DNA of 45,542 nt, taken from positions 1 through 45,542 of the forward strand of contig SHMX01000012.1 of NCBI GenBank assembly GCA_008080745.1, written 5' to 3'. The notes under the pieces were generated by a model that saw only the letters and a list, made by a program, of their open reading frames with translations, searched no databases and was not told where the DNA came from. Positions 3,910-22,141 of the stretch are shown here, in pieces. Each line of letters starts with the position of its first letter. Within the stretch, counting starts at the first letter, position 1. The DNA comes from Candidatus Thorarchaeota archaeon (GTDB lineage Archaea; Asgardarchaeota; Thorarchaeia; Thorarchaeales; Thorarchaeaceae). Both the position numbers and the translations under genes were made by a program.

Positions 3910-4257
3910 TTAAAATGAGATAGATGAATCAGAGGAAGTTACCATTTCTACAAACATTGGCATGGATCCAATCTCAGCATCTGGATGAATCATAGTTGCA
4001 TCAATACCCCGAGATTTCACACAAGTCCCACAATAAACAACTCGAGCACCACCAGAAATAACGGATTCTAGAAGTTCATAAAGATTGGGCATATTATTGG
4101 GTGATTGTCTACTCAAAGCACAGAATACACCACTTTGAACAAGAAAGACATCAACTGAATGACCATTTTCCAATGCACTTTTTATAAATTTCAATCCCGT
4201 ATAAGCAGATTCGTCGGAATATGGCTCGGATTTTATTACTACGGTAATTTTCACCAA
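3910..4257 (-). CDS. DsrE/DsrF-like sulfur-relay family protein
   Basis: This 115-residue protein has the small alpha/beta DsrE-like fold pattern: a beta strand at the N-terminus (VKITVVIKSEPYSDES), an amphipathic helix, the strand VDVFLVQSGVF, and a C-terminal YCGTCVKSRG with two Cys, where the family carries its sulfur-binding cysteine. A GGTGA ribosome site lies five bases before the ATG. The real sulfur acceptor or donor is unknown; sulfur relay for tRNA thiolation is possible given the neighbours, but this is inference. Confidence 0.8.
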   Translation of the reverse strand: MVKITVVIKSEPYSDESAYTGLKFIKSALENGHSVDVFLVQSGVFCALSRQSPNNMPNLYELLESVISGGARVVYCGTCVKSRGIDATMIHPDAEIGSMPMFVEMVTSSDSSISF

Positions 4258-4340
4258 TTACTTTTCACCCAATATCATAATTATTGAATTGGTGGCAATA
4301 TTCACTATATTTAGGATTTATGAAATCGCACTTTGATCTA

Positions 4341-4355
4341 GTCACAAATTGTGAC
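4341..4355. promoter_or_regulatory. Perfect palindrome, candidate operator
   Basis: GTCACAAATTGTGAC is a perfect inverted repeat with 7-base arms around a single central base. It ends 32 bases upstream of the TATA box of the micro-ORF cluster. A second, looser TTGT..ACAA repeat lies at 4415-4424, near the expected transcription start. This spacing suits a dimeric regulator. No regulator is encoded next to it. Confidence 0.5.
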
Positions 4356-4387
4356 TACATTGTGTGTCCTATAATCGTGGCTTTCCA

Positions 4388-4395
4388 TTATATAC
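4388..4395 (+). promoter_or_regulatory. TATA box of the micro-ORF cluster
   Basis: TTATATAC lies 32-39 bases before the first ATG of the cluster. Initiation about 25 bases downstream would leave a leader of only 7-10 bases. Confidence 0.55.
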
Positions 4396-4426
4396 TAACT
4401 TGGAGTAGTATATGTTGTGAACAATC

Positions 4427-4531
4427 ATGGCGTTTGCAAAGAACTCCCACACCCGAACCGAGAAGAAGAACATCACCCGTAAGCCCCAGAGCACCAAGGC
4501 TCTGTCCTATGCTTACACCTATCGGAGGTAA
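4427..4531 (+). CDS. Micro-ORF 1: basic 34-residue protein
   Basis: A 34-residue basic protein starting MAFAKNSHTRTEKK and ending in STKALSYAYTYRR. I recognise no family. It follows a TATA box at a leaderless-type distance. Its last two Arg codons (CGG AGG) together with the stop form a strong GGAGGT ribosome site for micro-ORF 2. The C-terminus matches that of micro-ORF 2 (STKA, three residues, AY, ending RR), with different Ser and Arg codons, which favours selection on protein. GC content is higher than in the flanks. Confidence 0.55.
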   Translation: MAFAKNSHTRTEKKNITRKPQSTKALSYAYTYRR

Positions 4532-4536
4532 TCTCA

Positions 4537-4620
4537 ATGGCAGTATCCAAGACCAAGATCATCAAGGACACCAAGTCCCCCTCAACCAAGGCTATCACCC
4601 ATGCTTACTTCAGGAGATAG
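4537..4620 (+). CDS. Micro-ORF 2: basic 27-residue protein, relative of micro-ORF 1
   Basis: A 27-residue protein, MAVSKTKII at the start and STKAITHAYFRR at the end. A GGAGGT site sits eight bases before the ATG. As in micro-ORF 1, the terminal Arg codons (AGG AGA, then TAG) form the ribosome site for the next ORF. It appears to be a diverged tandem duplicate of micro-ORF 1. Function unknown; the basic, aromatic C-terminus could bind RNA or a membrane surface. Confidence 0.55.
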   Translation: MAVSKTKIIKDTKSPSTKAITHAYFRR

Positions 4621-4625
4621 TCCAC

Positions 4626-4730
4626 ATGAACTCAAGCGTTCAAGATAAGCAATCGACTCCAAAACACCAAGACTCTAGCAAGAGTGGTGAACTCACGCCC
4701 CATGAAGTGCTCGCGTTGGAAGCAACCTGA
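4626..4730 (+). CDS. Micro-ORF 3: hydrophilic 34-residue protein
   Basis: A 34-residue protein beginning MNSSVQDKQSTPKHQ and ending ELTPHEVLALEAT. AGGAGAT lies nine bases before its ATG. It does not share the STKA...RR tail of the other two and has a short acidic amphipathic C-terminus. The three ORFs lie in three different frames, with 5-base spacers, and are followed by T-runs. Function unknown. Confidence 0.45.
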   Translation: MNSSVQDKQSTPKHQDSSKSGELTPHEVLALEAT

Positions 4731-4735
4731 GCACT

Positions 4736-4763
4736 CATTTTTCTTTTTATGAAACAAAAAAAT
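4736..4763. terminator. Shared terminator between micro-ORFs and RNase P RNA
   Basis: On the plus strand, two T-runs at 4739-4748 (TTTTTCTTTTT) follow micro-ORF 3. On the minus strand a T-run (complement of 4756-4762) follows directly after the 3' strand of the RNase P RNA P1 helix. Both fit archaeal oligo-T termination of convergent units. Confidence 0.65.
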
Positions 4764-5107
4764 GGCTCTGGTCCGAAGAGTAGCCCCGATTTTGTTCCGA
4801 ATTCAAGGTTACCCGATGAATTCCTTGCAACATCAAACTAAGCTTCCTACCCTAGGTTTCACGTCGACAGATCATCAACCTATTCTTGGAATTGCTACCT
4901 AGTGATGGACCGTTTCATCGAATCCGAATAGGTCCTCAACAGGTGGTCCTGTATCATAGTCATATCCTATCCGGGCGTGTCGTTTCTGTTTCCAGAGCAT
5001 GGTTCTCACCATTCAGCTCGCGCTGAACTAGCATCGACAAGTAGTCGGGATCTTCCTCAGCCTCTACGAGAAGTAGATACCGTCGGTTGCGCTTTCGCTC
5101 CAGAGCC
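4764..5107 (-). ncRNA. rnpB: RNase P RNA, archaeal type
   Basis: This is the catalytic RNA that removes tRNA 5' leaders. The ends form a perfect 8-bp P1 helix: GGCUCUGG at the 5' end and CCAGAGCC at the 3' end, followed at once by a T-run. Inside, in order, are a P3-like hairpin (UCUAC loop GUAGA), the CR-I-like GAGGAAGAUCC, two hairpins closed by GCGA and GAGA tetraloops, the CR-II/III-like GGAAACAGAAACGACACGCC, GAUGAAACGG, AGCAAUUCCAAGAAUAGG, and the 3' elements GGGUAGGAAGCUU and AUCGGGGCUAC. The length of 344 is normal. It lies 46 bases after cbf5 but has its own TATA box. Short ORFs read from this strand are chance frames. Confidence 0.9.
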
Positions 5108-22028: not shown

Positions 22029-22141
22029 CGCCCAGGATGGGATTCGAACTCATGCCTCCAAAAGGAGAGCAGCTGCCTGATCGTAAAGCCACTAGGCAAT
22101 TCGATTCCAGGCTGCCGCCGTAACCGCTTGGCTACCTGGGC
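22029..22141 (-). tRNA. tRNA-Ser (anticodon GGA) with intron; CCA at 22026-22028
   Basis: The acceptor GCCCAGG pairs with CCUGGGC; D-arm GCC..GGC; anticodon stem GCAGC/GCUGC with loop CUGGAA-A; long variable arm CUCC UUUU GGAG; T-arm AUGAG UUCGAAU CCCAU. The anticodon GGA (complement of 22106-22108) and the long variable arm identify Ser(UCC/UCU). A 30-base intron (22075-22104) lies after position 37. It forms a bulge-helix-bulge: central helix CUGG/UCAG, bulges AAU and GCA cut after their second base. Mature length is 83. The T-stem has one A-C mismatch. CCA is encoded. Confidence 0.92.

Follow-up and report, generated by a model that had tools for sequence, protein, structure and literature searches.

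A cassette of coupled micro-ORFs, apparently specific to Thorarchaeia, and its possible role in leader-peptide control of efflux pumps

Previous studies in bacteria have shown that mefA is controlled by a leader peptide, MefAL (MTASMRLR, ending in Arg-Leu-Arg), and that MefAL and MsrDL stand ahead of mefA and msrD, respectively (PMC10314930). Another leader peptide, peTrpL, acts in trans on a multidrug operon (PMC7298713). Termination–reinitiation with the SD embedded in the upstream gene is common and well known (PMC6728339), the coupling is strongly distance-dependent (PMC10666635), and reinitiation from leaders has been proposed in bacteria (PMC4833913). The open-access literature yielded no described leader peptide in Thorarchaeota or other Asgard archaea, and little on leader-peptide control in archaea.

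Here we describe a cassette of three micro-ORFs in a genome of Candidatus Thorarchaeota archaeon, lying within the 45,542-nt window to which all positions refer (the whole stretch of DNA analysed; contig SHMX01000012.1, positions 1 to 45,542). For family members that precede MFS pump genes, MefAL and MsrDL may by analogy be the nearest functional parallel: as in these and in Erm-type antibiotic-sensing leaders (PMC10314930), one or more short ORFs conserved up to the stop stand before a Mef-type MFS pump. The cassette differs in being archaeal, in having one to three tandem ORFs, each about 24–38 codons long, coupled directly without an attenuator gap, in showing neither a stop-codon preference nor sequence homology to those leaders, and in occurring in stand-alone multicopy versions. 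Termination–reinitiation gene pairs of archaea and bacteria (PMC6728339, PMC10666635) share with it an SD in the upstream 3' end and a very short stop–start distance, so the claim of an earlier note that the coupling design is unknown from described archaeal systems was overstated; most of these pairs, however, consist of ordinary genes with an overlap of 4 or 1 nt, whereas the cassette is a chain of micro-ORFs that has a conserved motif and, for the most part, a spacing of +4 to +7 nt. The likeness to peTrpL (PMC7298713) lies in a leader-type peptide tied to multidrug efflux and possibly acting away from its own gene, but peTrpL is the product of a bacterial trp attenuator without sequence relation, and the Thorarchaeia family has stand-alone gene copies. 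Small ORFs detected by Ribo-seq in Methanosarcina mazei (PMC11456600) are likewise archaeal coding ORFs missed by annotation; translation was measured there, whereas the Thorarchaeia multi-ORF cassette is known from comparative sequence alone.

The cassette extends from an operator-like palindrome (4341) to a hairpin and U-rich tract (about 4748), and its elements are listed in Table 1. The three ORFs lie in three different frames behind a TATA box, as the earlier note had read them, and a transcript with a short leader is expected from the position of that box. The end of ORF1 (CGG AGG TAA, 4523–4531) contains GGAGGT 5' of the ORF2 ATG, the end of ORF2 (AGG AGA TAG, 4612–4620) contains AGGAGAT 5' of the ORF3 ATG, and each ATG lies 5 nt past the preceding stop. 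The gene for RNase P RNA (4769–5102, minus strand) is convergent to the cassette, as had been noted; this adjacency is incidental, the two being neighbours only here and at the orthologous locus of a sister species (G015). A 148-aa ORF starting with TTG (4284–4730) and overlapping the whole cassette was rejected because it is not open in other copies, such as L002–L004. No Rfam model matches the cassette; the window gives only RNase P and one tRNA, and eight related loci give none. The tRNA model match covers 113 nt at 22029–22141 on the minus strand; it is missed by ARAGORN and is perhaps an intron-containing tRNA.

Table 1. Elements of the micro-ORF cassette (window positions)
Feature	Position	Strand	Basis or remark
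15-bp operator-like palindrome GTCACA-AAT-TGTGAC	4341..4355	.	seven GTCACA-N3-TGTGAC sites genome-wide
Conserved promoter block TGTGAC-N7-TGTGTCC-N7-GTGGCT	4350..4382	+	pattern in 38/47 family genomes
TATA box (TATATA), 38 nt 5' of ORF1 start	4389..4394	+	sequence; TATATAC conserved in alignment
ORF1, 34 aa, MAFAKNSHTRTEKKNITRKPQSTKALSYAYTYRR	4427..4531	+	pN/pS 0.49 in frame, 1.2–1.3 in other frames
SD GGAGGT for ORF2, within last codons and stop of ORF1	4524..4529	+	sequence; family statistics
ORF2, 27 aa, MAVSKTKIIKDTKSPSTKAITHAYFRR	4537..4620	+	pN/pS 0.23 in frame, 1.1–1.6 in other frames
SD AGGAGAT for ORF3, within last codons and stop of ORF2	4612..4618	+	sequence; family statistics
ORF3, 34 aa, C-terminus EVLALEAT	4626..4730	+	pN/pS 0.42 in frame, 1.1–1.4 in other frames
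Hairpin GTGCTC...GAGCAC around ORF3 stop codon	4707..4734	+	compensatory changes in outer stem, 47 sequences
U-rich tract TTTTTCTTTTT, probable transcript 3' end	4738..4748	+	sequence; similar tracts in nearly all copies

Loss of the reading frames in relatives, or conservation independent of frame as in a structured RNA, had been set beforehand as grounds for refutation; instead the frames are conserved, and conservation depends on them. Among moderately diverged pairs from 35 triads, in-frame pN/pS is below 1 for all three ORFs (0.23–0.49, against 1.06–1.59 in the other frames), values that are descriptive rather than a significance test because the pairs are not independent, although the contrast between frames is clear. 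Comparative evidence thus indicates that all three ORFs are coding and under in-frame purifying selection, and a reading of the region as RNA only was rejected because selection is frame-specific. Nor is the cassette a chance arrangement, given its five copies in the genome, its conservation across the family, the in-frame selection and the matches of an ORF1/ORF2-type profile, which scored 196 different small ORFs of the fetched loci above 10 bits but nothing in reversed-DNA controls. Codon usage is also unusual: GC3 in this genome is about 0.73 for ORF1 and ORF2 and about 0.36 for genes (0.27–0.48 for those in the window), and 0.72 was reached by none of 20,000 random 60-codon stretches. This preference for C- or G-ending codons spans 4427–4620 and recurs in the other four copies; ORF3, near 0.5, does not share it. 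High-expression codon bias was rejected as its cause, since four ribosomal-protein genes (GC3 0.30–0.45) lack so extreme a composition, and the bias is therefore not simply translational selection.

ORF1 and ORF2 are members of a single peptide family, [ST]TxA[ILV]xxAYx(1-4)RR*, with 193 distinct peptides; the products of the cassettes are 27–40 residues long. Their common tail, STKA(L/I)..AY...RR, is encoded by different codons, and members stand one to three in a row, which bears out the suggestion that the two ORFs arose from a duplicated protein; the version in genus g2 has only ORF1 and ORF3. Conservation peaks in the last ~13 residues before the stop and also covers a short MAL start, whereas the middle regions vary freely. 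AlphaFold places a helix over the conserved C-terminus and leaves the rest mostly disordered, with low confidence (pTM 0.28), and searches of Pfam (E up to 1) and NCBIfam gave no match for the peptides tested.

The double use of the terminal Arg-Arg codons as the next SD, first noted at the two junctions of this locus, extends to the family: of 203 ORFs, 188 have an SD overlying the stop and the codons just before it, and the first possible next start is 4–7 nt away in 155. The last codon is AGG or AGA in 188 of 196 Arg-ending ORFs, compared with 136 of 381 internal Arg codons, an excess by which the terminal Arg could be a mere by-product of the SD. Among the 15 ORFs without an SD at the stop, however, five (L067, L072, L077, L113 and L139) retain a final Arg-Arg encoded with CGC, CGT or CGG in last place; because of these, terminal Arg-Arg seems to be kept for the peptide as well as for the SD, albeit on a small number (n=5). 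Stop codons are used evenly (TAA 73, TAG 69, TGA 61). Divergent ORF2 versions ending in TEVYRTSF[RL]R occur at L040 (G024:C197) and L116/L012 and retain the SD at the stop.

ORF3 represents a second peptide type with a variable body and a fixed EVLxLEAT* end, predicted helical by AlphaFold at low confidence. The hairpin around its stop shows compensatory changes at outer-stem pairs 6-29 and 9-26 (47 sequences), a different hairpin is kept around the stop in the divergent L056 and L057, and pyrimidine- or U-rich tracts follow 3' in nearly all copies. Judged by these alignments, the hairpin at the 3' end is genuinely a feature of the RNA.

Five copies of the cassette occur in this 3.16-Mb genome (G000) and four in the sister species G015. 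The G000 copies (~395 bp) are 88–98% identical, with sharp borders and unrelated flanks. A DNA match was found in 35 of the 47 genomes of the GTDB family, and the C-terminal pattern of ORF3 in 32 of the 47 and in none of 181 other Asgard genomes; a looser AY-RR DNA pattern stayed at control level outside Thorarchaeia across the phylum, and IMG/VR contigs gave no match to the patterns tried. Among the genomes compared, the cassette thus appears specific to Thorarchaeia. Four positions correspond between G000 and G015, which belong to the same genus, with flanks 64–85% identical (L001/L007, L003/L037 and L005/L036, and L002/L038 on one side only). Cassettes are 88–98% identical within a genome and 81–85% between the two, whatever their position, a pattern suggesting that syntenic copies evolve in concert, with chimerism of MAG assembly as a caveat to this two-genome comparison. 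Gene conversion among old copies would be the simplest account.

The palindrome GTCACA-N3-TGTGAC occurs exactly seven times in the whole G000 genome: at the five triads, in the leader of an MFS gene (C4:63943) and in the promoter between genes for an HTH_45 winged-helix protein and a bactofilin. Matches to the promoter pattern in genome_contigs came only from MAGs of this group, almost all named Candidatus Thorarchaeota, apart from two chance matches in Streptomyces. At L185, the own-genome locus, the winged-helix gene (1148–1471) is followed by the palindromic operator (1501–1515) and the bactofilin gene. Among 30 such loci (L192–L221, own genome included), the strict palindrome lies 15–48 nt past the winged-helix stop in 24, and L205, L217 and L218 carry a one-base variant beside the gene; the arrangement is conserved across most Thorarchaeia. 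By position only, the HTH_45 protein is a candidate regulator of the regulon. The promoter of the triads at L026, L034, L054 and L055 is of another kind, carrying the repeat GGTTTG...CAAACC next to the TATA box, and the ORF cassette is therefore the constant part. The same inverted repeat abuts the TATA box at some pump promoters too, the instances noted being these four loci, L139 and L150.

Turning to genomic context, we assigned 77 distinct promoter modules by an automatic chain rule: 27 are triads or dyads ending in EVLxLEAT, 12 stand before MFS cluster 1 and 16 before MFS cluster 0, 12 precede something else, and contig ends truncate the remaining 10. A family ORF ends directly at the start of the pump gene, or shortly ahead of it, in 11 of the 12 cluster-1 modules, in most cases with its last codons containing the SD, and these Mef-like genes start a few nt past an AYFRR*-type stop; L140 has no directly preceding family ORF, the SD is weakened at L077 and the choice of start is uncertain at L106. 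ORF and pump gene are probably carried on one transcript. The cluster-1 protein passes Pfam MFS_1 and MFS_3, matches TIGR00900 over its full length (E=1e-64; 219 bits, under the curated cut-off of 320) and matches Mef(A) far under the cut-off (E=5e-22); it thus appears to resemble the H+ antiporter 2A0121 (TIGR00900) and Mef families without counting as a member. Directly coupled loci separate leader and gene by no more than a few nt, so that a classical attenuator hairpin would not fit.

The 16 cluster-0 modules reach the MFS gene only through a longer second regulatory region with TGGTCA repeats spaced by 10–11 nt. At L167 (about 4110–4190), L151, L138 and about 20 other MFS leaders, a TGGTCAC array followed by CAGCATAT and TGTGACCA lies upstream of the MFS gene. 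The array is probably a second operator–promoter, or else an RNA element; a structured leader RNA was rejected, as the spacing is more like that of DNA operators and no consistent fold was found. The triple TGGTCA array was not found in G000 with up to two mismatches allowed. Many cluster-0 genes are followed by a conserved protein, rich in glycine, that has CxxC pairs and lacks a Pfam match (cluster 3; L164, starting at about 2746, plus eight further modules).

What can be read directly from the sequence is a single promoter, three micro-ORFs that are coding, junctions that each have an SD across the stop, and a 3' hairpin with a U-tract; in relatives, members of the peptide family also stand immediately ahead of Mef-like MFS pumps. 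We propose that ribosomes may pass along the cassette by termination–reinitiation, that the conserved C-terminal helix STxAIxxAYxxRR could act in the exit tunnel and set the efficiency of hand-over to the next ORF, and that, where a pump gene follows, this hand-over would amount to leader-peptide control of the pump. More weakly, stand-alone triads could be a further source of these peptides, provided in trans and at raised dosage, and this would account for triads being multicopy and homogenised in sequence. The interpretation as a whole, an operator-controlled cassette particular to Thorarchaeia within an efflux and envelope regulon, with leader control of pumps, is one to which we give somewhat less than an even chance. 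In-frame selection, the conserved C-terminus, Arg-Arg kept without an SD, MFS adjacency, the shared operator and concerted evolution support it, as do the precedents of MefAL on mefA and of peTrpL in trans. Like ribosome-arrest leaders, the micro-ORFs are short, lie upstream of a gene (11 of 12 in cluster 1) and have conserved stop-proximal residues, and like reinitiating ORFs they combine a short stop–start distance (4–7 nt in 155) with an SD in the upstream ORF (188/203). Against leader control, stop-codon use is even, unlike in some termination-arrest leaders; directly coupled loci show no alternative RNA structure hiding the SD or terminating transcription and leave no space for one of the attenuator type; and cluster-0 modules reach their pumps only through the second region. 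Stand-alone triads without a consistent downstream gene argue against control in cis alone. Still more ambitious is a new archaeal form of nascent-peptide control, in which the C-terminal helix of serial micro-ORFs governs hand-over, acting on pumps in cis and through gene-converted triads in trans within one Asgard regulon; we regard this as conceivable though unlikely.

The products might instead be stable trans-acting microproteins that bind, for example, RNA, the ribosome, a regulator or the pump, with coupling preserving stoichiometry and MFS-linked copies reflecting co-expression. That stand-alone triads have their own promoter and 3' end, occur several to a genome and are homogenised by concerted evolution fits this account, as do the pN/pS of 0.23 for ORF2, the strong GC3 bias of ORF1 and ORF2 and the finding that genes coupled in pairs are often those for subunits of the same complex (PMC10666635). 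It is nevertheless doubtful: the peptides are predicted to be mostly disordered apart from the short C-terminal helix, their middles vary freely, no known domain matches them, and the codon bias is unlike that of the ribosomal-protein genes. Generic reinitiation leaders, which would merely load ribosomes onto the next start whatever the peptide sequence, have precedents in the short leader genes common near structural genes and proposed as translation boosters (PMC4833913) and in the wide occurrence of SD-in-stop coupling (PMC6728339), but purifying selection on the residues, conservation of STxAxxxAY upstream of the SD and the SD-less Arg-Arg ends make this improbable.

Small cationic peptides in multiple copies beside efflux-type MFS genes could also suggest secreted or toxic products of bacteriocin or RiPP type, with the MFS protein as exporter or immunity pump. 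Such products are very improbable here, as neither a hydrophobic stretch nor a signal sequence is apparent, no modification-enzyme family recurs beside cassettes among the downstream clusters, and none of the five triads in G000 has a pump as its next coupled gene. Copies scattered through the genome, sharply bordered and with unrelated flanks, together with the covarying 3' hairpin, might point to a mobile or selfish element or to a structured non-coding RNA with accidental ORFs, a combination that is barely plausible and already largely refuted by frame-specific selection and synteny. A MITE-like element was rejected because copies are syntenic between G000 and G015; neither terminal inverted repeats nor target duplications are apparent, and no Rfam model or IMG/VR contig was matched in the searches described above.

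Taken together, the coding micro-ORFs, the duplication and the embedded SDs proposed by the earlier note stand, and the novelty of the coupling design falls away. What looks new is the peptide family itself, its place as a leader of MFS transporters, the concerted stand-alone triads and the shared operator; for the family, its arrays and the triads, the open-access literature gave no described counterpart, and the peptides look like an unrecognised regulatory family. With 193 members and no Pfam or NCBIfam match among those tested, this family is a concrete target, and the way in which its scattered ~395-bp copies evolve together suggests that gene conversion maintains a product whose dosage matters. 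If the peptides are leaders or act in trans, efflux control in Thorarchaeia would resemble that by bacterial macrolide leaders, carried out on an archaeal ribosome.
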